The notes under the pieces are model-generated. The model saw only the letters and a program-made list of their open reading frames with translations, had not been told where the DNA came from and did no database searches. A stretch of 35,109 bases of DNA from Terriglobia bacterium (GTDB lineage Bacteria; Acidobacteriota; Terriglobia; Terriglobales; Acidobacteriaceae), in the NCBI GenBank assembly GCA_020073015.1, contig JAIQFZ010000062.1, forward strand, positions 1 through 35,109, read 5' to 3'. Positions 21,742 through 35,109 of this stretch are shown one piece after another. Numbering within the stretch: position 1 is the stretch's first letter; each line of letters begins with the position of its first letter. The translations under genes and the position numbers were made by a program.

Positions 21742-21826
21742 TGGCGCGCCCGGAGAGATTCGAACTCCCGACCTACAGCTCCGGAGCTCCGGAGGGTGCT
21801 GCTCTATCCAGTTGAACTATGCGCGC
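21742..21826 (-). pseudogene. Decayed tRNA-Arg duplicate
   Basis: The 3' 45 bases (from the anticodon loop through the T-arm, acceptor and CCA) are identical to the intact tRNA-Arg at 22904-22980. The 5' half differs: acceptor GCGCGCA instead of GCGCCCG leaves mismatches at positions 5 and 7, GCAGC of the anticodon stem is GCACC, and CTCCGGAG is tandemly duplicated, adding eight bases in the anticodon arm (85 versus 77 nt). The upstream promoter is also copied, but its -10 reads CACACT (21842-21847) instead of TACACT. A functional cloverleaf is unlikely. Confidence 0.75.
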
Positions 21827-22903: not shown

Positions 22904-22980
22904 TGGCGCGCCCGGAGAGATTCGAACTCCCGACCTACAGCTCCGGAGGCTGCCGCTCTATCCAGCTGAGCTACGGGCGC
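22904..22980 (-). tRNA. tRNA-Arg (anticodon CCG)
   Basis: 77 nt including an encoded CCA. On the minus strand: acceptor GCGCCCG pairs perfectly with CGGGCGC, D-stem GCTC/GAGC, anticodon stem GCAGC/GCTGT with loop CTCCGGA (anticodon CCG at 34-36), T-stem GGGAG/CTCTC with loop TTCGAAT, discriminator G. It reads CGG arginine codons, common in this GC-rich genome. A decayed copy lies 1.1 kb downstream at 21742-21826. Confidence 0.97.
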
Positions 22981-25436: not shown

Positions 25437-25637
25437 ATGAAGAACCGTGATGCCAATCGTCACCCGGGCCCCTCGCGCGTGATGCAGGTGGACTCGGAGT
25501 TTGCCGGCCTTCTTCTCGCGGCTGCATTCCTGCTGATGGGCGCTGTCGGCCTCGACATCGGAAAATGGTTCGTGCAGGGGGCCCTTGCGCTTGGCGTCGG
25601 TGTTGCATTACTGCTCCGTTTCACTAGGAAGACGTAA
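25437..25637 (+). CDS. Small two-helix membrane protein
   Basis: 66 residues from ATG 25437; the frame is open upstream to an ATG at 25401, and an internal ATG gives MQVDSEF. No strong ribosome site is seen, only a weak GAGAC. Two hydrophobic helices (FAGLLLAAAFLLMGAVGLDI and VQGALALGVGVALLLRF) are joined by a short loop (GKWF) and followed by a basic tail (TRKT). It is probably an inner-membrane protein; no family or function is recognised. It stands alone between the typA upstream palindromes and the SnoaL-like gene. Confidence 0.45.
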   Translation: MKNRDANRHPGPSRVMQVDSEFAGLLLAAAFLLMGAVGLDIGKWFVQGALALGVGVALLLRFTRKT

Positions 25638-25756
25638 CCTCAGAGCTCCCCGAGCCTTTCGGATTTATCCGTTGCGCGTTGCCGTACCATCCATCAGTTC
25701 CGCCGCGATCGGCGGAGCTCCTCCCGTCCCCACTCGCAGCCGATGCCAGAACACCG

Positions 25757-25796
25757 CTTGCGCGCTCTCGTAACATTGCTATAATCTCGCAAGGTT
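25757..25796 (+). promoter_or_regulatory. Promoter with operator-like dyad, copy 2 (SnoaL-like/permease unit)
   Basis: TTGCGC (25758-25763), 16 bases, TATAAT (25780-25785). The TATAAT sits inside the dyad AACATTGC-N9-GCAAGGTT (25772-25796), which has one mismatch between its arms. The same arrangement with a perfect dyad lies between the MerR-XRE-cupin regulator and the TonB receptor at 30686-30726. The next gene start is 129 bases downstream. Nothing else is evident in 25638-25924. Confidence 0.62.
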
Positions 25797-25924
25797 TTAG
25801 GCGGCGCGCTGTCCGTCCCGTCAGGCTGGATCGAGGCTGCTAGAACGGCGATCCGCGCTAACGGAAGGCCGGTGGAAGATTGCGCCGCCAACGTTCTGAT
25901 GAACAACGATCGGAGAAAATGAAA

Positions 25925-26416
25925 ATGGATAGGAAGCGAACTCTAACTGGCGCCGTCGTGCTCGCCATGCTGGTTCTGCCGGCGATCGCGGCCCCGCCCG
26001 AAGGCAAGACCGCTGCGGAACGGGATGCCGCTGTGGCGGAAAAGTGGATTGCCGCGTGGAATTCCCACAGCCCGGACAAGATGCTCCCGGTGTTCACTGA
26101 CGATATCTTCTACGAAGACGTGGCCTTTGGCGAGGTCAGTCACGGCAGCGCCCAATTTCGTAAGTTCGCCGCCTCCGAATTTGAAGGCGTCCCTGATCTC
26201 GAACTCAAACTGGTGCGCGCCAATGTCCACGGGGGCCACGGCACCATCGAATGGGTCTTTAGTGGCACCGATAAAGGCGTCTTCAAGACGGGGAAAAAGT
26301 TTTCTGTGCGAGGCGTTAGCGTGATCGACGTTCGCGATGGCAAAATAGCGCGCAGTCTCGATTTCTACGATTCGGCGACTATCATGCGCCAGGTCGGAGT
26401 GTTGCCAGCCCAGTAA
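25925..26416 (+). CDS. Exported SnoaL-like/NTF2-fold protein
   Basis: 163 residues from ATG 25925, which has GGAG nine bases upstream; ATG 25919 is too close to that site. Signal peptide about 1-21 (TLTGAVVLAMLVLPAIAAP). The mature part is a single NTF2/SnoaL-like cone: helix AAVAEKWIAAWNSHSPDKMLPVFTDDIFYEDVAFGEVSHG, QFRKFAASEFEGVPDLELKL, then beta strands GTIEWVFSGTDKGV, KKFSVRGVSVIDVRDGKIARSLDFYDSATIMRQVG. The fold occurs in steroid isomerases, polyketide cyclases and many small-ligand binders, so the function is not determined. Export to the periplasm is unusual for catalytic members and suggests ligand binding. It may be transcribed with the permease 72 bases downstream. Confidence 0.8.
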   Translation: MDRKRTLTGAVVLAMLVLPAIAAPPEGKTAAERDAAVAEKWIAAWNSHSPDKMLPVFTDDIFYEDVAFGEVSHGSAQFRKFAASEFEGVPDLELKLVRANVHGGHGTIEWVFSGTDKGVFKTGKKFSVRGVSVIDVRDGKIARSLDFYDSATIMRQVGVLPAQ

Positions 26417-26488
26417 CGGCAAACGGAAAGTCTAAATGACTCACGGCTTCCCGGAATTCTTCGGGCCCCAACTCCGAAAAGGATCTTT

Positions 26489-27991
26489 ATGACACCAAAC
26501 CCACCCGCAGCCGACCGAGACTCCGCTCAGCTCGAAGCTCTCGGCTATGACTCCAAGTTTGATCGCTCCATGAGCCTGTGGGCGAACTTCGCGCTTGGCT
26601 TCACGTACCTGTCCCCCGTGGTGGGAGTTTACACACTCTTCGCCATCGCCTTTGCCGCCGGCGGGCCGCCGATGTTCTGGACTTACTTGTTTGTCGGAAT
26701 CGGACAACTGTTCGTGGCTATGGTGTTCGGAGAGATTGTTTCTCAATTTCCCATTGCCGGCGGACTCTATCCCTGGGCGCGACGGCTGGTAGGAAAGCGT
26801 TGGGCCTGGATGGCGGGTTGGGTTTACCTGTGGGCCTTGTGCAGCACGATCGCTGGGGTGGCAGTGGGTGGAGCTCCTTACGTGGCGCAGCTTTTGGGCA
26901 TCCAAGTCGGGCAAGCCGGAGAAGTTGCGATTGCCGTGGCCATGATTGTCGGCACGACCGCGCTGAACGTCAGCGGCACCAAACTTCTTGCGCGGGTGGC
27001 CATGTTCGGATTCATTTGCGAGCTGTTGGGCGCGATTGTGGTGGGTGGCTATCTGCTGATCGTGGCCCGGCACCAGAGCTTCGGAGTTCTCTTCCAAAGC
27101 TTTGGCCTCGGCAACGGACACTATTTCTCCGCCTTCGTGGCGTCGAGCGTGGCTGCGATGTGGTGTTACTACGGTTTTGAAGCTTGCGGCGACGTCGCCG
27201 AAGAAACTCCTGACGCCAGCCGCGCCATCCCCAAGGCGATGCGCAGGACCATTTATATCGGCGGCTTCGCGGCCATGTTGGTTTGCCTGGCTTTCGTACT
27301 GGCGGTGCCCGATCTGAACGCGGTGTTCTCCGGAAAGGATACCGACCCGGTGGTTACCGTCCTGAACACAGCTGTGGGGCCAGTCGGACTGCGGGCGATT
27401 ATTGCAGTGGTCATGGTTTCCTTCTTTTCCTGCCTCATCAGTCTGGAGGCAGCCACCAGCCGGCTGTTGTACAGCTATGGCCGCGACCGCATGATCTTTG
27501 GCAGCGCCCAGCTGAGCGCGCTTTCCGAACGCACGCGCGTTCCGGTGAATGCTCTGCTGTTTGCCGGCATTGTGCCGGCCTTGATTGCGATTGCAGGTTT
27601 GTTCCTGAAGAGAATGGTGGAGACGATCGTCGTATCCAGCGCCGCCGGCATCTACGTCGCGTTCCAGATGATTGTCCTGGCAGCTTTGATCGCGCGCGCC
27701 AGGGGCTGGAAACCGCGCGGAGCGTTTCGTCTGGGGATCTGGGCGTGGCCGGTCAACCTGGCGGCGCTCACCTACGGTGTCCTGGCGATCATCAACATGA
27801 CGTGGCCGCGTTCTCCCCAGGACCCCTGGTATAGCAACTACGGAATGATTGTAGTTTGGGTGGCCGTGGTCGCGATCGGTGTGTTCTACGCCGTCCTGTT
27901 TCGGCCCTACGATCGCCTGGACAAGCCCGAGGGCGATGCTCACCTCGCCCACCTGGACGAGCCGCTGCCCGCCGAGAGCAGCCTCGATTAA
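26489..27991 (+). CDS. APC-superfamily amino acid/amine permease
   Basis: 500 residues, ATG 26489, with AAAAGGAT seven bases upstream. It is an inner-membrane importer with about 12 hydrophobic segments. APC signatures: YDSKFDRSMSLWANFALGFTYLSPVVGVYTLF, GEIVSQFPIAGGLYPWARRLVGKRWAWMAGWVY, CYYGFEACGDVAEETPDASRAIPKAM (the conserved GFEaxxxxAEEtxxpxrxiP loop) and SFFSCLISLEAATSRLLYSYGRDRM. It is nearest in pattern to the GABA/choline/amino-acid permease branch. Flanked by an exported small-ligand-fold protein and an amidohydrolase, it may bring in an amine or amide-derived compound; the substrate is not readable. It converges on the amidohydrolase gene. Confidence 0.9.
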   Translation: MTPNPPAADRDSAQLEALGYDSKFDRSMSLWANFALGFTYLSPVVGVYTLFAIAFAAGGPPMFWTYLFVGIGQLFVAMVFGEIVSQFPIAGGLYPWARRLVGKRWAWMAGWVYLWALCSTIAGVAVGGAPYVAQLLGIQVGQAGEVAIAVAMIVGTTALNVSGTKLLARVAMFGFICELLGAIVVGGYLLIVARHQSFGVLFQSFGLGNGHYFSAFVASSVAAMWCYYGFEACGDVAEETPDASRAIPKAMRRTIYIGGFAAMLVCLAFVLAVPDLNAVFSGKDTDPVVTVLNTAVGPVGLRAIIAVVMVSFFSCLISLEAATSRLLYSYGRDRMIFGSAQLSALSERTRVPVNALLFAGIVPALIAIAGLFLKRMVETIVVSSAAGIYVAFQMIVLAALIARARGWKPRGAFRLGIWAWPVNLAALTYGVLAIINMTWPRSPQDPWYSNYGMIVVWVAVVAIGVFYAVLFRPYDRLDKPEGDAHLAHLDEPLPAESSLD

Positions 27992-28032
27992 AGCACTGAG
28001 CCGACCGCCACGGGATCAGGTCATTTCGGCGA

Positions 28033-29796
28033 TTATTGTTTCGGCTCCGGCGCGGCAGGGTTTTTCCAATTCGGTGATTCGTATACAACCTTGCCGCCCA
28101 CCATGGTCATCAGCACTTCGGTCTTGCCGATCTCGGTCGGCTCGATCAGGAACAGATTGCGGTCGATGACGATCAGGTCGGCGAGCTTTCCGGTCTCGAT
28201 CGAGCCCTCGGTTCTTTCGCGGTGACCGGCAAAGGCCGCACCGAGCGTGTAGGCGCGGAGCGTGTCGTCGAGGCCCAGTCGCTGCTGGGGAACGAATCCA
28301 TATTCAGGCTTGCCATCATCCGTTTGCCGGGTGAGGGCGGTTTGCACGCCGGGCCAGGGGTTCAGCGTGACGATCGGCCAGTCGCTCCCGAAAGCGAGCA
28401 CACCGCCTTTGTCCTCGATGCTGTGCCACGCCCACGCCCGTTTAGCCCGTTCCGGCCCGACGTTGCGGACCCAGATGCCCAGCGTGTCTTCGTTGGGATA
28501 AGAATGCAGCGGTTGCATGCTGGCGACGACGCCGAGTTTGCCGAAGCGGTCGATGTCCGGTGCGCTGACATTCTCGATGTGCTCGATCCGGTGCCGCCGG
28601 TCAGAAGTGTGGTTCACATGCTGTGCGTTGTCGTATGCGTCCAGCGCAAGCCGGATCGCGCGATCGCCAATCGCATGGGAAAAAACCTGAATCCCATGGG
28701 CATCCAGTTCTTCGACTGCCCGCACGTACTTGTCCGGATCCCAGAGCAGATGCCCGGACTGCGACGGATCATCCGCGTAAGGCGCCAGCATCGCGGCCGT
28801 ATGGGTCTCAATCACGCCATCCACGAAAAACTTCGCCTTGCCGGTTGACAGCCAGTCATCGTGGTAGCGGCGCCGAGCATCTTCGATCCGGCGCACTTGT
28901 TCCTCAGTTAGCGCCGGAGGTTGAATGCGCATGGACACATCCAGGCGCACCGTCAGCTGCCCAGACCGCCGCAACTCGTCGTACACATCCAGACTCTCGA
29001 AATCTCCGCCCACCACGTGAACACCATCCGTACTGATGGCACGCACGAGCCCGACACGATTGGCTTCCAGCATGCCGCGGCGCAGAGCTGCTACTACCTC
29101 TTGTTTGCTGGGCCGCGGAATCGCGTGCCGAACCACCTCGTCGGCCGAGTCTTCTTTGACCGCGCCGGTAGGCTCTTCCGTCTTGGGATCCCGCACGAAT
29201 GAGCCGCCCGCCGGATCCGGAGTCGCCTTGGTAATCCCAGCCAGTTGCAGCGCCTTGCTGTTCGCCCACCAGGTGTGGCCGTCAAATCCTTCGAGGTACA
29301 CGGGCCGGTCGGGAACGATCTGGTCGAGATATTTCTTGTCCGGAAGTCCGTCCACACTGAAGAGCGTGTAGTTCCAGCCCCGTCCCTGAATCCAGACCAG
29401 CTCAGGATGAGCGGCGGCGTAGTTCTTGACCCGTTGCTGAACGTCCGCCAGGGTCGTGGCATCCTCCAGATTGACTTGCACCAGACTCAGCGATCCATCC
29501 AGAAAATGGATATGACAATCGGTGAAGCCCGGAAACACCAGGTGCTGACCGGCATCCATCACCTTTGTCGACGGGCCCCGGAAGGCGTCAATCGTTTTGC
29601 GGTCGCCCACGGCGACAATCTGTTCGCCGCGAATGGCCACCGCTTCCGCCCATTTTTGCTTCGCATTCATCGTGTAAATGCGGGCGTTGGTGACGATGAC
29701 GTCGGCGGGAGGTGGGGGGGTGTCGGCGGCTGCCGATGGAATGGAGAAACAGACGGCGAGCAGAAAGAAACGGAGAGGATGGCAGGGGAGGGGCAT
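28033..29796 (-). CDS. Exported amidohydrolase 3 family (YtcJ-like) metal hydrolase
   Basis: 587 residues, ATG 29796. Signal peptide about 1-25 (FFLLAVCFSIPSAAAD). Beta-sandwich start (ADVIVTNARIYTMNAKQKWAEAVAIRGEQIVAVGD), then metal motif H-I-H in VFPGFTDCHIHFLDGS, an inserted YtcJ-type segment (WIQGRGWN, DGHTWWANSKALQLAGI), KFFVDGVIETHTAAM, HAIGDRAIRLALDAY, RHRIEHIENV, Asp in LAFGSDWPIV, and a C-terminal GKLADLIVIDRN. All expected zinc ligands appear present. The family hydrolyses amide or carbamate bonds of small molecules. It lies 21 bases downstream of the MerR-XRE-cupin regulator, so it is probably in its operon. Export suggests the substrate is processed outside the cytoplasm. Confidence 0.9.
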   Translation of the reverse strand: MPLPCHPLRFFLLAVCFSIPSAAADTPPPPADVIVTNARIYTMNAKQKWAEAVAIRGEQIVAVGDRKTIDAFRGPSTKVMDAGQHLVFPGFTDCHIHFLDGSLSLVQVNLEDATTLADVQQRVKNYAAAHPELVWIQGRGWNYTLFSVDGLPDKKYLDQIVPDRPVYLEGFDGHTWWANSKALQLAGITKATPDPAGGSFVRDPKTEEPTGAVKEDSADEVVRHAIPRPSKQEVVAALRRGMLEANRVGLVRAISTDGVHVVGGDFESLDVYDELRRSGQLTVRLDVSMRIQPPALTEEQVRRIEDARRRYHDDWLSTGKAKFFVDGVIETHTAAMLAPYADDPSQSGHLLWDPDKYVRAVEELDAHGIQVFSHAIGDRAIRLALDAYDNAQHVNHTSDRRHRIEHIENVSAPDIDRFGKLGVVASMQPLHSYPNEDTLGIWVRNVGPERAKRAWAWHSIEDKGGVLAFGSDWPIVTLNPWPGVQTALTRQTDDGKPEYGFVPQQRLGLDDTLRAYTLGAAFAGHRERTEGSIETGKLADLIVIDRNLFLIEPTEIGKTEVLMTMVGGKVVYESPNWKNPAAPEPKQ

Positions 29797-29817
29797 AGTC
29801 TTCGATCGTGCTACGAA

Positions 29818-30615
29818 TCAGAATGTCGGCGGCGTGTTGACCCACAGCAGCCAGGTCTCACTCCGGCCGGGATTTTTCCAGTGATGCGGGGTAGCGCTTT
29901 CGAAATAAAAGCTGTCTCCGCGTTTCAGATGGTACTCCTCGTCGGCCAGCGCGATCTGTAATTCGCCGCGCAGCACAAAGAGGAATTCTTCGCCCTCATG
30001 GGCATACGACTCGCCGCTGCCCGCTTGCGGCGCAATGCGGAACAGGTGGGGTTCCATGACGGTGCTGCCCCAGGCGAGCAATTCCATGCGCACCCCGGGG
30101 CCGGCATCGAGCACCTTCCGGCTCGCCGGACGAACCAATCGGGTATTCGATTTGGTCGGATCGAAAAAATCAAGGATGTTCGTCCGGTAGTAGCGTGCTA
30201 GCCTGCGCAGGGTGCCGACGGAAGCGCTCATTTGCGAGCGCTCAAGCGCGCTGAGAAACCCGACGGAGATTCCGGCCGCCGCCGCTACTTCGGCCAGGCC
30301 GACACCGCGCTTCGTGCGCAACTGCCGCAGACGAGGTCCAATCGATGAGGGTGTCTTGTTGTTCGAGGGCTGGATTGCACCCTCGCGTTCCATCATCTGG
30401 ACGATGGCGGCGGCATTGAGGCCGCGCACTTTGCGCAGGTAGCGGGCTTTCTTCAGCAAGCGGACGTCGTCGTTGGTGTAGAGACGATACTTGCTCTTGG
30501 TGCGCTGCGGACGGGTGAGGCCGAGACTCTCCCAACTGCGAATGGACGAAGGCGATATGCCCACCAGTCGCGCTACGTCGCCGATTTTCAGATGGACTTG
30601 AGCGTCGTCCGACAC
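29818..30615 (-). CDS. MerR-XRE-cupin triple-domain transcription regulator
   Basis: 265 residues from GTG 30615, with AGGGGAAA upstream. Residues about 8-78 are a MerR-type winged HTH (LKIGDVARLVGISPSSIRSWESLGLTRPQRTKSKYRLYTNDDVRLLKKARYL). Residues about 92-152 are a second, XRE-type HTH (LRQLRTKRGVGLAEVAAAAGISVGFLSALERSQMSASVGTLRRLARYY). Residues about 180-262 are a cupin sensor (AHEGEEFLFVLRGELQIAL, HLKRGDSFYFESATPHHWKN). XRE-cupin regulators are widespread; an added MerR DNA-binding head is less usual. It is followed by the amidohydrolase and is divergent from the second TonB receptor. The intervening region holds a perfect dyad over both -10 boxes, most simply its own operator. Confidence 0.92.
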   Translation of the reverse strand: MSDDAQVHLKIGDVARLVGISPSSIRSWESLGLTRPQRTKSKYRLYTNDDVRLLKKARYLRKVRGLNAAAIVQMMEREGAIQPSNNKTPSSIGPRLRQLRTKRGVGLAEVAAAAGISVGFLSALERSQMSASVGTLRRLARYYRTNILDFFDPTKSNTRLVRPASRKVLDAGPGVRMELLAWGSTVMEPHLFRIAPQAGSGESYAHEGEEFLFVLRGELQIALADEEYHLKRGDSFYFESATPHHWKNPGRSETWLLWVNTPPTF

Positions 30616-30661
30616 GAGTTTCCCCTATGAATTTTGGTAGCCAGGGGGAAGCACTTTCCGC

Positions 30662-30690
30662 TTGACAGAGGGCAGCGGAACCAATAACCT
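30662..30690 (+). promoter_or_regulatory. Promoter candidate for the second TonB receptor
   Basis: TTGACA (30662-30667), 17 bases, TAACCT (30685-30690). The -10 overlaps the left arm of the dyad at 30686-30710, so binding there should block it. The receptor ATG is 86 bases beyond the -10. Confidence 0.55.
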
Positions 30691-30710
30691 TGCGCGATTA
30701 TAGCAAGGTT
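30686..30710. promoter_or_regulatory. Perfect operator dyad between divergent regulator and TonB receptor
   Basis: AACCTTGC-N9-GCAAGGTT with identical 8-base arms. Its centre contains TATAAT on the minus strand and its left arm overlaps the plus-strand -10. The module recurs at 25772-25796 with one mismatch. It is the most likely binding site of the adjacent MerR-XRE-cupin regulator. Confidence 0.7.
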
Positions 30711-30724
30711 CTCACCTCAAGCAA
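30697..30724 (-). promoter_or_regulatory. Promoter of the regulator-amidohydrolase operon
   Basis: On the minus strand: TTGCTT (30719-30724), 16 bases, TATAAT (30697-30702), with TGC directly before TATAAT as an extended -10. The GTG start of the regulator lies about 82 bases downstream. Confidence 0.65.
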
Positions 30725-30776
30725 GTTGAATCGGATGTAAAAAACAATTCCCCTGGGGATCTGGAGGGTCTGTTCC

Positions 30777-33700
30777 ATGGCTCCGTCGAAACCGTTCTGG
30801 CTGACACGCTGGCTTACTGTTGTGGGCCTCTGTCTGGTTTGTTCCATGCTCATGTTCTCGCAAGGCACCGGAGGCCGAATTTTCGGCCGAGTTTCCGACC
30901 CAACCGGCGCTGTGCTGGCGGGAGTGAAGGTCACCGCCACCAATGAGGCCACGGGCGTTGCTCGCACCACCCAGACCACCGAGAGTGGGGACTACGTCTT
31001 TGTGGATATTCCTGTGGGCACCTATGCCCTCAAGTTCGAACAGGCCGGGTTCACGAGCGCCATTCGCAAGAGCGTCACACTCGAGATCAACCAGGTGCTC
31101 ACGCTGAACATGGCCATGCAGATCGGTCAGACGAAGGAGATCGTCGAGGTGACCTCGGAGGCGCCGCTGGTGGATACGACCAGCACCCAACTGGGCGCTG
31201 TGGTGAACGATCGCGCAGTGTCGCAGTTGCCGCTGAATGCGCGCGACACGTATCAATTACTTTCGCTCCAACCCGGTGTACAGTCGCAGACAGGATCGGA
31301 CCTTTTCTACGGCAGCGATCGCGCGGGCGTGGTTTCGGTGAATGGAGGCCGAGGACGCTCCAATAACTTTAGCGTGAATGGCGGCGACGCCAACGATCAG
31401 TTCGCCAATCTTCCCGCCGTGCAACCCAGTCCGGATTCGATCGAAGAATTCCGCGTTTTGACCAACACGTTCGACGCGGAATACGGTCGGAACTCGGGGG
31501 CGGTCGTCAACGTGGTTACCAAGTCCGGAACCAATAAATTCCACGGAAACCTGTTCGAGTTCTTCCGCAACAAAGTGCTGAACTCCAGGGGGTATTTCGA
31601 CAGCGAAAAACCCGATTTCAAGCAGAACCAGTTTGGCGGCACGTTTGGCGGGCCGATCAAGAAGGACAGGACTTTCTTCTTCACTTCGTATGAAGGGCGT
31701 CGCATCCGGCAGGGAATTTCCTCCGATGCCGTTGCCGTTCCGAGCGATGCGTATCGGTCTGGGGATTTCTCGGGAGGCACATTCACTGGCACGGTCAACG
31801 ATCAGACGGTGGCCGACTTGCTGAATAGCCGCCCTGGATGCACCGCCCCCGGAGGTGGACAGATCGCTGTCGGGGACAACTATTCCGACATCTTTCATGG
31901 CTCGAAGATCCCGACAGCTTGCATGGATCCCGTTGCCGTGGACATGATGACCCAGTTTGTTCCCTCGGCGAATCGTCCGGACGGAACCTTCCAGACAGTC
32001 GCCGGGATCCACAAGGACCGCACCGATCAACTGACGGCCAAACTCGATCACCGCATCAACGACCGGCAGAACCTTTCGGCGTATTACTACTTCAACGACA
32101 GCACCCTGTTCGATCCCTACTCGCGATTCCAGGCAGGGGGCGCGAATGTGCTTACGTTTGGCGCAAATACGGCCGAGCGCTACCAGCAGTGGAATGTCAC
32201 GCACAACTGGACGCTACGCAACAATCTGGTGAATGAGGCACACTTCACCGTCTTCCGCGAGGCACAGGGCAACTTCCTCCATCCGCAACGCACGAACCTT
32301 GTCCAGGATTCCTGCAGCAGTGCGGTTCCTTCCGGCACGTGTTTCAGCGACCCCAATAATCCCGACCTCGGCATTCACCCGGGACTCGGTGCGAGCCGCG
32401 AGGGCGTGCCCTTTGTGTCTGTTTCCGGCTATTTCAACTACGGAAACAACTTCGAGGGCGAAATTCCGCAGGCTGGGAACACCTTCCAGTGGTCCGACAG
32501 CATGAGTTGGATCAAAGGCACGCACACGGTGAAATTCGGGGGAGACGCTCGCTACCAGCGCTTCGACCAGACCCTGTACTACAACGTCAACGGCTTTTAC
32601 AGTTATTACGGGGGCGGTCCCGACGATCCTAATCTCCAGGTGCCGCTGCAGGACGGCACAAACAACACGTTTGAAGATATTTTCCCCTCGTATCTGCTCG
32701 GGTTGCCAGACAGCTTTAGTCAGGGTTCCGCGCAGAGTGAGAATGTCCGGAGTAAGATCTTCTCCGTCTTTGCCCAGGACAGCTGGAAGATCCGCCCCAA
32801 TCTGACCCTGAATTACGGTTTGCGCTGGGAACTGTTCACCCCGCTCACCGATGTTAGCGGGCACGTGCAGAGCTTCCGCCAAGGGCAGACCAGCAAAACC
32901 TATCCCTGTACCGACACTCCAGCCATGTATTGTCCGGTCGGGTTGCTGGTCCCTGGAGATCCGGGAGTGCCGGCGGGGCTTACCACTACTTACTACAAGA
33001 CTTTCGCCCCACGCCTCGGTATCGCCTACAGCCCGGGCAGTTCCGGCAAGACCAGTATCCGCGCTGGTTGGGGGATGTTCTACAACCCGATGGAGCAGTT
33101 GGTGTTGGAGCAGTTCAGCGCGGAGCCCCCCTTCGGGGGCAGCAACCTGATCGCCTCCCCGCTCTTCAACACTCCCTATCAGGACCAGTTTGGCGATCCC
33201 CCCAAGCCGAATCCCTTCGGGGGCATCATTACGCCTCCCAAGGGGCAGGATCCGGACTGGCAGCGGTTCCGGTCGCTCCTGCTTTATGGACAATTCCAGC
33301 CCCATCTGCGCACGCAATACTCGGTGCAATACAACCTGAACATTCAACACGAGTTGACCAAGGACTTGGTCCTGCAGATGGGCTTCGTCGGATCTCAGGG
33401 GCACCGACTGCTGGCCAGCCATGACATCAACTATGGCAACGCACAGACATGTATCGATCTGAATTCGCTACTTGGCGATGGGACCTGCGGCCAGTTCTAT
33501 GCCGATAGCGCGTTCGACGTTCCAGCGGGCACTGTTCTTCCTGATAACCTTGATTTCCATCTTCCCTATTCGGCCAATGGTGGTGGACCTACGGTTATTC
33601 CGCACGGCACGACGCTGACCAACGGTCTGAGGCTCGTCGGTCTTAGGCGGTTTTCCTCTCCCAATTGCGACCCGCTGACGGGGGACGGCTGTCCAGCTGA

Positions 33701-34532
33701 CGGTACCCCAGTTTTCTCCAGTATTTTTGCTGAAGACACCATCGCTTACTCGAACTACAACTCCCTCCAAGCCTCCTTGGAAAAGCGCTTCTCGCACGGG
33801 TTGCAAGCCAACGTCGCCTACACGTTCAGCAAGTCGTTTGACTTGGCTTCGAGCTTCGAAGGCGAACTGAACCCGCTCAATTTCCGGAAGACGTATTCAC
33901 TCTCCCAGTTCGATGCTCGCCATCGCTTCATTCTGAGCTACGTCTGGCAGCTGCCGCTTCCCAAGTACTCTGGGATCGCCGGCCAGATTGCGAATGGCTG
34001 GGATCTGTCCGGCATCTACACTTATCAGAGTGGTTTTCCCATCCGGCTCACTTCCTCGGCGGACAACGAGTTGATGTACAGCGCGTTCTTCGAGTATCCG
34101 GGACAGCCGGACCAGATCGCGGCCTTCCACAAACAGAACCCCAAGTCGAATGGTGGCTACTGGTTTGATCCGGGCAGCTTCACAGAAAATGCGTCGTCTC
34201 CCGTCTACGACGAGGGTGGCAACCTCATCAACGATTGCCAGAACCATCCCGGATTCAACTGTTACCAGCCATCGCTCTTCGGTCGCATAGGCACTGCCCC
34301 ACGGACGATATGTTGTGGCCCGCCCATCAACAACTTCGATTTCGCGCTCCACAAAGTGTTTTCCATCAACGAGGACAAGCGCTTCGAATTTCGGACGGAA
34401 ATCTTCAACCTGTTCAATCACACTCAGTTCAGTAATCCTGACGGCAACACCACCGACGGCTCTGACTTTGGCCGCATCAAGCGCGCCCGGGAGCCGCGAC
34501 AGGTACAATTTGCTTTGAAGTTCTACTTCTAG
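30777..34532 (+). CDS. Oar-like TonB-dependent outer-membrane receptor (large)
   Basis: 1251 residues, ATG 30777, with GGAGGGT eight bases upstream. Signal peptide about 1-29 (WLTVVGLCLVCSMLMFSQ). Carboxypeptidase-regulatory-like domain about 31-120 (GRIFGRVSDPTGAVLAGVKVTATNEATG). Plug domain about 130-260 (TTSTQLGAVVNDRAVSQLPLNARD, SVNGGRGRSNNFSVNGGDANDQ, FDAEYGRNSGAVVNVVTKSGTNKFHG). Long 22-strand-type barrel with typical GLRWELFTPLTDVSG, TYQSGFPI and NLFNHTQF elements, ending FALKFYF. Acidobacterial members are linked to oligosaccharide or peptide uptake; the substrate is unknown. It is divergent from the MerR-XRE-cupin regulator across a perfect dyad, so expression is probably switched by that regulator. 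A stem-loop follows at 34555-34576. Confidence 0.94.
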   Translation: MAPSKPFWLTRWLTVVGLCLVCSMLMFSQGTGGRIFGRVSDPTGAVLAGVKVTATNEATGVARTTQTTESGDYVFVDIPVGTYALKFEQAGFTSAIRKSVTLEINQVLTLNMAMQIGQTKEIVEVTSEAPLVDTTSTQLGAVVNDRAVSQLPLNARDTYQLLSLQPGVQSQTGSDLFYGSDRAGVVSVNGGRGRSNNFSVNGGDANDQFANLPAVQPSPDSIEEFRVLTNTFDAEYGRNSGAVVNVVTKSGTNKFHGNLFEFFRNKVLNSRGYFDSEKPDFKQNQFGGTFGGPIKKDRTFFFTSYEGRRIRQGISSDAVAVPSDAYRSGDFSGGTFTGTVNDQTVADLLNSRPGCTAPGGGQIAVGDNYSDIFHGSKIPTACMDPVAVDMMTQFVPSANRPDGTFQTVAGIHKDRTDQLTAKLDHRINDRQNLSAYYYFNDSTLFDPYSRFQAGGANVLTFGANTAERYQQWNVTHNWTLRNNLVNEAHFTVFREAQGNFLHPQRTNLVQDSCSSAVPSGTCFSDPNNPDLGIHPGLGASREGVPFVSVSGYFNYGNNFEGEIPQAGNTFQWSDSMSWIKGTHTVKFGGDARYQRFDQTLYYNVNGFYSYYGGGPDDPNLQVPLQDGTNNTFEDIFPSYLLGLPDSFSQGSAQSENVRSKIFSVFAQDSWKIRPNLTLNYGLRWELFTPLTDVSGHVQSFRQGQTSKTYPCTDTPAMYCPVGLLVPGDPGVPAGLTTTYYKTFAPRLGIAYSPGSSGKTSIRAGWGMFYNPMEQLVLEQFSAEPPFGGSNLIASPLFNTPYQDQFGDPPKPNPFGGIITPPKGQDPDWQRFRSLLLYGQFQPHLRTQYSVQYNLNIQHELTKDLVLQMGFVGSQGHRLLASHDINYGNAQTCIDLNSLLGDGTCGQFYADSAFDVPAGTVLPDNLDFHLPYSANGGGPTVIPHGTTLTNGLRLVGLRRFSSPNCDPLTGDGCPADGTPVFSSIFAEDTIAYSNYNSLQASLEKRFSHGLQANVAYTFSKSFDLASSFEGELNPLNFRKTYSLSQFDARHRFILSYVWQLPLPKYSGIAGQIANGWDLSGIYTYQSGFPIRLTSSADNELMYSAFFEYPGQPDQIAAFHKQNPKSNGGYWFDPGSFTENASSPVYDEGGNLINDCQNHPGFNCYQPSLFGRIGTAPRTICCGPPINNFDFALHKVFSINEDKRFEFRTEIFNLFNHTQFSNPDGNTTDGSDFGRIKRAREPRQVQFALKFYF

Positions 34533-34623: not shown

Positions 34624-35109
34624 ATGTACCCCGCACTGCAAAAAGAGCTCGACACGTTCGAGCGTCGTACCCCGAAGTCCGCCGAGGCGCATAAGAAAAA
34701 CCTCAAGCGTCTGCCGCTGGGCGTAGCCAGCAATTACCGCGCTTACGATCCGTATCCCATTTTCGTGTCGGAGGCCTCCGGCAGCAAGTTCCGCGATCTT
34801 GACGGCAACGAATACATCGACCACAACCTATGTTTCGGCACGCTCATGGCCGGCCATTCGCATCCGGCGGTGATCAAGGCCGTCGAAGGGCGCCTGCACA
34901 AAGGCACGGCCTACGGCATGCCCCACAACATGGAGTGGGAACTAGCGGAAGAAATCTGCACGCGCTTTCCGGTCGAGATGTGCCGCTTCGGCAACAGCGG
35001 TACCGAAGCTACCATGCACACGATTCGTCTGGCGCGCGCGGCAACCGGACGCGACAAGATCATCAAGTTCGAAGGCGGCTACCACGGTCTGCACGATGCA
35101 GCCCTGGTC
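34624..35109 (+). CDS. Glutamate-1-semialdehyde-aminomutase-like class III aminotransferase (5' part)
   Basis: ATG 34624 with TTGGAGAATC upstream; the frame stays open for 162 codons to the window edge. The sequence LPLGVASNYRAYDPYPIFVSEASGSKFRDLDGNEYIDHNLCFGTLMAGHSHPAVIKAVE is the N-terminal domain of PLP-dependent class III aminotransferases. The combination GVxSNxRxxxxxPxxxxxAxGxxxxDxDGxxYxD and later FGNSGTEATMHTIRLARAATGRDKIIKFEGGYHG is closest to glutamate-1-semialdehyde 2,1-aminomutase and its catabolic relatives. The PLP lysine lies beyond the edge. Placed after a nutrient receptor rather than among haem genes, it may be a HemL-like catabolic enzyme rather than HemL itself. Confidence 0.88.
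   Translation, partial: MYPALQKELDTFERRTPKSAEAHKKNLKRLPLGVASNYRAYDPYPIFVSEASGSKFRDLDGNEYIDHNLCFGTLMAGHSHPAVIKAVEGRLHKGTAYGMPHNMEWELAEEICTRFPVEMCRFGNSGTEATMHTIRLARAATGRDKIIKFEGGYHGLHDAALV

Follow-up and report, generated by a model that had tools for sequence, protein, structure and literature searches.

A repeated promoter-operator module in an acidobacterial contig and a candidate MerR-XRE-cupin regulon for polyamine uptake and breakdown

Two copies of one promoter-operator module at a single locus raise the question of whether they mark a regulon, and if so which factor would read them, which genes would respond and what kind of compound would be taken up. The locus lies in a stretch of 35,109 nucleotides (the window, below) from a Terriglobia bacterium (GCA_020073015.1, contig JAIQFZ010000062.1). 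A preliminary description had pointed out the repetition and proposed a local regulon, in which one factor controls an outer-membrane receptor, a permease, an exported hydrolase and an exported ligand-fold protein as one uptake and breakdown system whose substrate was not known.

The repeated module and its promoters

The pattern searched, CTTGC-N10-AAC-N-TTGCTATAATC-N-CGCAAGGTT, is 40 bases long and matches with 0 mismatches at 25757-25796 (plus strand) and at 30686-30725 (minus strand). No third copy was found in the window up to 3 mismatches, and 100 dinucleotide-preserving shuffles of the window gave 0 matches, which bears out the shared module. The dyad without the -10 is less striking than the full 40-base module: allowing up to 3 mismatches, the window holds 4 matches vs 1.34 expected, of which only the two sites match at 0 mismatches. 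The few genome-wide copies hoped for in the preliminary description were also found, as the window's own genome (5.5 Mb, 245 contigs, 99% complete) holds exactly 2 copies of the 25-base core up to 3 mismatches, sites 1 and 2 themselves, with 0 for the reversed pattern. The features around them are these:

25758-25785, plus strand: predicted promoter of site 2, with -35 TTGCGC (25758-25763), a 16-bp spacer and -10 TATAAT (25780-25785)
25772-25796, plus strand: site 2, candidate operator dyad AACATTGC-N9-GCAAGGTT, with one arm mismatch; overlaps the -10 and precedes the SnoaL-APC genes
25919-26416, plus strand: exported SnoaL-like protein (PF07366/PF12680)
26489-27991, plus strand: APC-superfamily permease (PF13520)
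28033-29796, minus strand: amidohydrolase (Amidohydro_3, PF07969) whose N-terminus looks signal-like; follows the regulator gene in a shared orientation
29818-30615, minus strand: regulator, with a MerR HTH (residues 10-77), an XRE HTH (96-148) and a cupin (191-259); proposed binder of both sites
30662-30690, plus strand: predicted divergent promoter toward the receptor, with -35 TTGACA (30662-30667), a 17-bp spacer and -10 TAACCT (30685-30690)
30686-30710, minus strand: site 1, candidate operator dyad, a perfect AACCTTGC-N9-GCAAGGTT with 8-bp arms and 9 bp between, common to two divergent promoters
30697-30724, minus strand: predicted promoter toward the regulator, with -35 TTGCTT (30719-30724), a 16-bp spacer and -10 TATAAT (30697-30702)
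30777-34532, plus strand: TonB-dependent-type outer-membrane receptor (PF25183, N-terminal PF13620)
34624-35109, plus strand: first part of a class III aminotransferase gene (AT1), which runs off the contig; 98% identical to the AT1 of locus L085

The reading that we favour, and hold to be probable, is that a local, auto-regulated repressor resembling PuuR and PauR acts at both sites and runs the uptake and breakdown of polyamines.

The TATAAT of site 1 does point toward a downstream gene, as first described, but that gene is the regulator, with the amidohydrolase behind it, and not the outer-membrane receptor. The receptor can be kept under the module by another route, through its own conserved -35 and -10 on the opposite strand, with the dyad lying over that -10. 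In an ungapped stack of 30 genomes (29 regulator-bearing ones and G016) the core AACCTTGCTATAATC-NN-GCAAGGTTA is near-invariant and the flanks have diverged, and the regulator-side promoter, TTGCNN-16-TATAAT, is conserved. A second set comprises 80 named loci, from metagenome bins whose titles are mostly Acidobacteria, Acidobacteriaceae, Terriglobia or Ca. Sulfotelmatobacter, and here the regulator-side TTG stands at the expected spacer in 57 of 77 loci and is offset by one in 13 of 77. On the receptor side, the base after the core is A (the T of TAACCT) at 76 of 77 primary sites of these loci, and TGTCAA with at most 1 mismatch follows at 74 of 77, either 18 (39 loci) or 19 (35 loci) bases past the core.

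At secondary sites, the type to which site 2 belongs, TTGC and a 16-bp spacer are found in 9 of 14 cases, with TTGC offset by one in 2 and missing in 3 (L069, L221 and L222). Both features of the divergent promoter are present in only one of these 14, L074 of G027, where a divergent set of genes is present. The predicted two-way layout accordingly belongs to the primary sites and is almost lacking at the secondary ones, and from these counts the dyad of site 1 would cover the -10 boxes of both divergent promoters and that of site 2 the -10 of one. The secondary sites served here as the control because the reversed word for the divergent -35, AACTGT, overlaps the real motif and makes a poor one (25 of 77 loci match at 15 or 16). 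A consensus promoter scan of 25600-31000 flagged no promoter, since each pair includes a weak hexamer, and the label 'promoter' therefore rests on conservation and not on a consensus score. A terminator scan stayed at chance level (6 found vs 5.6 expected). The only Rfam matches in the window at gathering threshold are two tRNA matches, at 22907-22980 and 21745-21826 (minus strand), comprising one clear tRNA and one weak tRNA-like match.

Genes under the operator and the likely substrate class

Domain matches confirm that site 2 precedes a SnoaL-like protein, for which the ATG at 25919 looks a likelier start than the TTG at 25880, and an APC permease, which is closest to the urea-carboxylase-associated permease model. 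At the other end of the window AT1 is truncated; contig C106 of the same genome (L234) carries, in order, an AT1 from residue 90, a second APC permease (APC2), an aldehyde dehydrogenase, a 4-aminobutyrate (GABA) transaminase and a third transaminase (AT3), the relatives of the first four being 83-91% identical, and this run perhaps continues the window past the contig end. About 900 further bases lie between AT3 and the end of C106. Related loci have the receptor followed by AT1, APC2, aldehyde dehydrogenase and GABA transaminase, and the regulator followed by an optional amidohydrolase and often by PotD-A-B-C. Counts over the 80 named loci, which vary in length, are TonB 76, PotD 62, AT1 61, APC2 52, amidohydrolase 36, APC 5 and SnoaL 3.

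All 15 of the 15 secondary sites that could be placed precede transporter genes or genes like that of spermidine dehydrogenase (SpdH), and none is at a housekeeping gene, in agreement with the expectation that matches would fall at transport and catabolism genes. Seven stand before SnoaL-APC (the window's site 2 included) and one before APC alone (L167, 2 mismatches); four precede a cytochrome c and an SpdH-like flavoprotein, with SnoaL-APC behind in two, one precedes three SpdH-like genes, and two precede unlinked potDABC. Together with the two copies in the window's own genome, these sites support the local-regulon reading. On one side of the L074 site (G027:C38, 6488-6512) are three SpdH-like genes and on the other divergent 2Fe-2S and molybdopterin oxidoreductase genes, through which the regulon might extend to aldehyde oxidation.

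The substrate can probably be narrowed to a class from the homology of the relatives' PotD and SpdH. The relatives' PotD matches the solved PotD 8y5h at 9.9e-31, and their PotA is just under the polyamine subfamily cut-off (348.9 vs 355.6), while the GABA transaminase of L086 is above its cut-off (576.9 bits vs 506.65). Their SpdH-like protein matches the solved spermidine dehydrogenase 7d9f, which we take to be from P. aeruginosa, at 1.7e-159. The PotD-like proteins fall far below the PotD, PotF and YdcS cut-offs. Of what are presumably the ligand positions of PotD, W, Y, D, W, W and D are kept in the relatives and E171 is not, but this pocket argument is weak. All of these polyamine clues (PotD, PotA, SpdH and the GABA transaminase score) come from relatives; the window alone names no substrate. 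The placing of polyamine-transporter and amine-oxidising genes under the operator likewise rests on homology in relatives, as a search at 1e-60 gives no PotD in the own genome, and the five SpdH relatives there (three on C199, one each on C142 and C200) have no operator within 3 mismatches. With these matches taken together, we would put the predicted substrates, with fair confidence, among the polyamines or diamines.

It must be judged unlikely that the same regulator and operator serve another substrate, such as GABA, a compound resembling an opine or a betaine, or an N-acylated amine that the amidohydrolase would cleave. Several enzymes would suit such a compound: the closest models to AT1 are those of glutamate-1-semialdehyde and GntE-type transaminases, the closest to the aldehyde dehydrogenase include those of betaine-aldehyde and aminobutyraldehyde dehydrogenases, the closest to APC2 are those of GABA antiporters, and the affinity of the window's APC permease and the loss of E171 from PotD point the same way. 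Against this, the operator stands directly before potDABC and SpdH-like enzymes in several genomes, and the latter match spermidine dehydrogenase at 1.7e-159. Because of the relatives' PotD, SpdH and GABA-transaminase matches, polyamines or close diamines are put first and other omega-amino compounds are kept as the rival.

Exchange of the transporter

Among 61 genomes, PotD (at 1e-60) is found in 19 and the window's APC permease (at 1e-120) in 10, with an overlap of 0. The 29 of these that carry the regulator include 18 with PotD, 10 with APC, one (G036) with neither and none with both; G016 has PotD without the regulator. Of the 10 APC genomes (the own genome counted), 6 have the site immediately in front of SnoaL and 2 have it in front of CytC-SpdH-SnoaL-APC; it is absent from the remaining 2, G015 and G023, whose APC genes have no site in 491 and 591 bases upstream, respectively. 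Remnants of pot genes lie beside the APC cassette in three genomes: residues 208-282 of potC adjoin site 2 in G008, residues 240-280 of potC are beside the cassette in G019, and residues 44-84 of potD are between APC and the amidohydrolase in G023. The window has no such remnants. In a tree of the regulator the APC label needs 7 changes, of which at least 3 are forced by starred branches, only 4 of the 26 inner branches being starred. G652, of another genus, has SnoaL-APC behind a site with perfect arms and with TACAAT for TATAAT.

These patterns are best read as SnoaL-APC standing in for PotDABC in the window's genome, and they suggest that in relatives the transporter behind the operator was exchanged more than once, usually with the operator kept. 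PotD-A-B-C is found in that order behind the regulator or operator in many relatives, as in the PotABCD systems; it differs in that the window's genome is without PotD at 1e-60 and that the relatives' PotD scores below the equivalog cut-offs. The mutual exclusion and the remnants would tie an APC/SnoaL cassette of no assigned function to the Pot transporter, thereby predicting its substrate, and the genomes offer a natural series for the study of a transporter swap under a conserved operator.

The regulator and its proposed action

The single factor postulated for both sites in the preliminary description still fits, and a candidate was at hand that had gone unmentioned there, since the first gene behind site 1 is the regulator gene, its GTG and the site being separated by 70 bases. 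Its MerR HTH is above cut-off for both PF13411 and PF00376 (MerR_1 2.8e-17), and HTH_3 at 96-148 (2.5e-13) and Cupin_2 at 191-259 (1e-18) both exceed their gathering scores. The protein thus has the XRE/Cro HTH followed by a C-terminal cupin that marks XRE-cupin proteins, and by sequence a palindromic operator within the core promoter adjoins the gene that encodes it; the protein departs from the P. aeruginosa XRE-cupin architecture in the MerR HTH in front, as do two paralogues that were scanned. Three loosely linked parts make up the AF2 model (mean pLDDT 80.6, pTM 0.45), with helices at 92-150 and a beta barrel at 167-260. The fold search adds little: the best Foldseek matches are HppE chains, and the HTH_3 regulator 1y9q is among the matches, with a poor whole-chain fit (rmsd about 12). 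The factor that reads both sites is most likely this MerR-XRE-cupin protein.

Three known regulators invite comparison. Residues 90-265 align with the whole PuuR model (NF007408) at 6.9e-20, but the 71.4 bits fall below the cut-off of 211, so the protein is not a PuuR, and it has the extra N-terminal MerR domain. E. coli PuuR leaves the DNA on sensing putrescine, according to PMC9951944, and binds between puuA and puuD (PMC9951944 and PMC7901475). The N-terminus matches the HspR, CueR and ZntR models, the best MerR-type NCBIfam model being that of the repressor HspR (1.7e-12), whose winged HTH corresponds to residues 10-77; however, the 47.2 bits are short of the cut-off of 105, the domain here is fused to XRE and cupin, and no heat-shock genes are at the sites placed. 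PauR of P. aeruginosa, as PMC7901475 presents it, is the closest in kind, with an XRE HTH and a cupin, palindromic operators including a site before its own gene, and control of polyamine use and catabolism, gabT2 and transporters among its targets. It differs in that no MerR HTH is described (the word 'MerR' occurs 0 times in PMC7901475), in acting at 12 genomic places by the same source, where the present system has one to three sites per genome, and in that the predicted targets here include a TonB-type receptor. The P. aeruginosa XRE-cupin proteins generally are portrayed in that source as local repressors with palindromes in core promoters that act beside their own genes.

Four paralogous MerR-XRE-cupin regulators, L077 (G000:C200:5234-6010), L078, L079 and L080, are 44-52% identical to this one and adjoin other TonB receptors, SpdH, amidohydrolase or transaminase genes. 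An operator common to the paralogues was looked for and rejected, the four examined having AAGGTT-like half sites only and no dyad upstream. Regulators built in this way look like a family that has undergone a modest expansion, and their substrates perhaps differ. Titles and abstracts among the matches listed in open-access PMC contained no MerR-XRE-cupin regulator and no such acidobacterial regulon.

From the sites, their conservation, the tie to the regulator, the gene content and the either-or of the transporters, all read from sequence, we infer binding, repression, ligand and substrate as follows. A dimer of the regulator would sit on AACCTTGC-N9-GCAAGGTT, covering at site 1 the -10 of the regulator/amidohydrolase promoter together with that of the divergent receptor promoter, and at site 2 the -10 of the SnoaL-APC promoter; RNA polymerase would be blocked at the covered boxes, giving repression and auto-repression. 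A polyamine that has been taken up, or a product of one, would bind the cupin and cause the regulator to leave the DNA, switching on receptor, inner-membrane transporter and amidohydrolase, as well as the aminotransferase, aldehyde dehydrogenase and GABA transaminase if these are read through from the receptor promoter. The transporter would be PotDABC in most regulator-bearing relatives, and SnoaL-APC with its own copy of the operator in the window's genome.

The added MerR HTH may help to read the long dyad, or may allow a second mode of action. MerR-activated promoters typically carry their dyad inside an over-long spacer of 19-20 bp, and an activator whose MerR part twists the promoter as in CueR is conceivable here, given the MerR HTH and its matches to the HspR, CueR and ZntR models. 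We nevertheless regard activation as decidedly unlikely: the spacers are of 16 and 17 bp and the dyad lies over the -10, a geometry unlike the canonical one, the best MerR-type match is a named repressor in that library, and the XRE-cupin relatives of P. aeruginosa repress (PMC7901475). Arm spacing gave no decision as to which HTH reads the dyad, whether it is set beside the 12-14 bp that PMC12565409 gives for XRE motifs or beside the spacings of MerR motifs. These last are comparison values from general background.

A wider picture can be offered tentatively, at somewhat less than even confidence, of a double-HTH (MerR + XRE) cupin group in Terriglobia-type Acidobacteriota. It would combine a 25-bp dyad on overlapping divergent promoters with a polyamine route from outer membrane to GABA that has a dedicated TonB-type receptor, and the operator would serve as a tag for unrelated transporters (PotDABC or SnoaL-APC) exchanged in place more than once. 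Soil and peat Acidobacteriota, represented here almost only by metagenome bins, would thereby gain a candidate regulon for polyamine-type uptake and breakdown, one in which the proposed regulator is named, the operator positions are exact and an outer-membrane receptor is put forward.

Site and regulator across genomes

Of 300 family genomes, spanning 79 genera, 71 have site and regulator, 2 the regulator only, 3 the site only and 224 neither (Fisher p 1.6e-62, uncorrected for kinship). The regulator is matched at 1e-50 in 80 of them; 73 were kept as orthologues, the partial G561 among them, and G017, G493, G519, G584, G617, G627 and G656 were dropped as paralogues or a partial weak match. The regulator-only genomes are G466 (54% identity) and G538 (a degenerate site with 3 mismatches). 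The site-only genomes, in which no orthologous regulator was found, are G016, G493 and G511, and in the first two potDABC and the receptor flank the site, with the regulator absent at that place; it may be unassembled, because some genomes are incomplete (G016 82%, G493 84%). An orthologue of at least 64% identity is present in 29 of the 61 genomes (the own genome counted), with the site upstream in 29 of 29. The operator was also found, with 0-4 mismatches, upstream of the regulator orthologue in all 78 testable named loci (78 of the 80 have at least 100 bases upstream), the core having 0 mismatches in 55, 1 in 5, 2 in 3, 3 in 9 and 4 in 6, and the reversed control 6-11; this set shares some records with the numbered genomes, and counts over related genomes are not independent.

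That the site belongs to another factor, and is near the regulator only as the regulator's promoter, is very improbable on these figures. A conserved gene may have its promoter retained for the promoter's own function, and the four paralogous genes are without a site; yet the core recurs at unlinked potDABC, SpdH and SnoaL-APC genes, and site and regulator co-occur almost totally. As for a generic strong promoter or dispersed repeat met twice by chance, which the perfect TATAAT might suggest and of which dozens of matches at housekeeping genes would have been the sign, it can be ruled out for practical purposes by the genome-wide counts: there are 2 copies in 5.5 Mb, the 74 of 300 family genomes with sites have one to three each, associated with a single regulator group, a phylum sample of 396 genomes has the site with at most 1 mismatch in 4, all four of this family, and no housekeeping genes are among the sites placed.

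Some outlying loci deserve mention. L076 (G017:C2:11548-11572) has perfect arms with TACAACGAC between and 2 mismatches; it is near a contig end, was not placed and adjoins a TonB-type gene of weak similarity. The regulators of its genome are all paralogues, and L076 may be a chance match or a related site. L178 (CAJCHZ010000027.1), titled Betaproteobacteria, has the receptor, aminotransferase, permease, regulator, pot genes and an acidobacterial-type operator variant, and is probably a mislabelled or contaminated bin. In the distant loci L182-L196, with regulators 60-65% identical, the left arm AACCTTAC replaces AACCTTGC in 13 of 15, nine of these having a right arm that ends in AAACTT, and L186 and L188 keep the usual left arm; these arm variants provide material for the study of protein-DNA co-variation.
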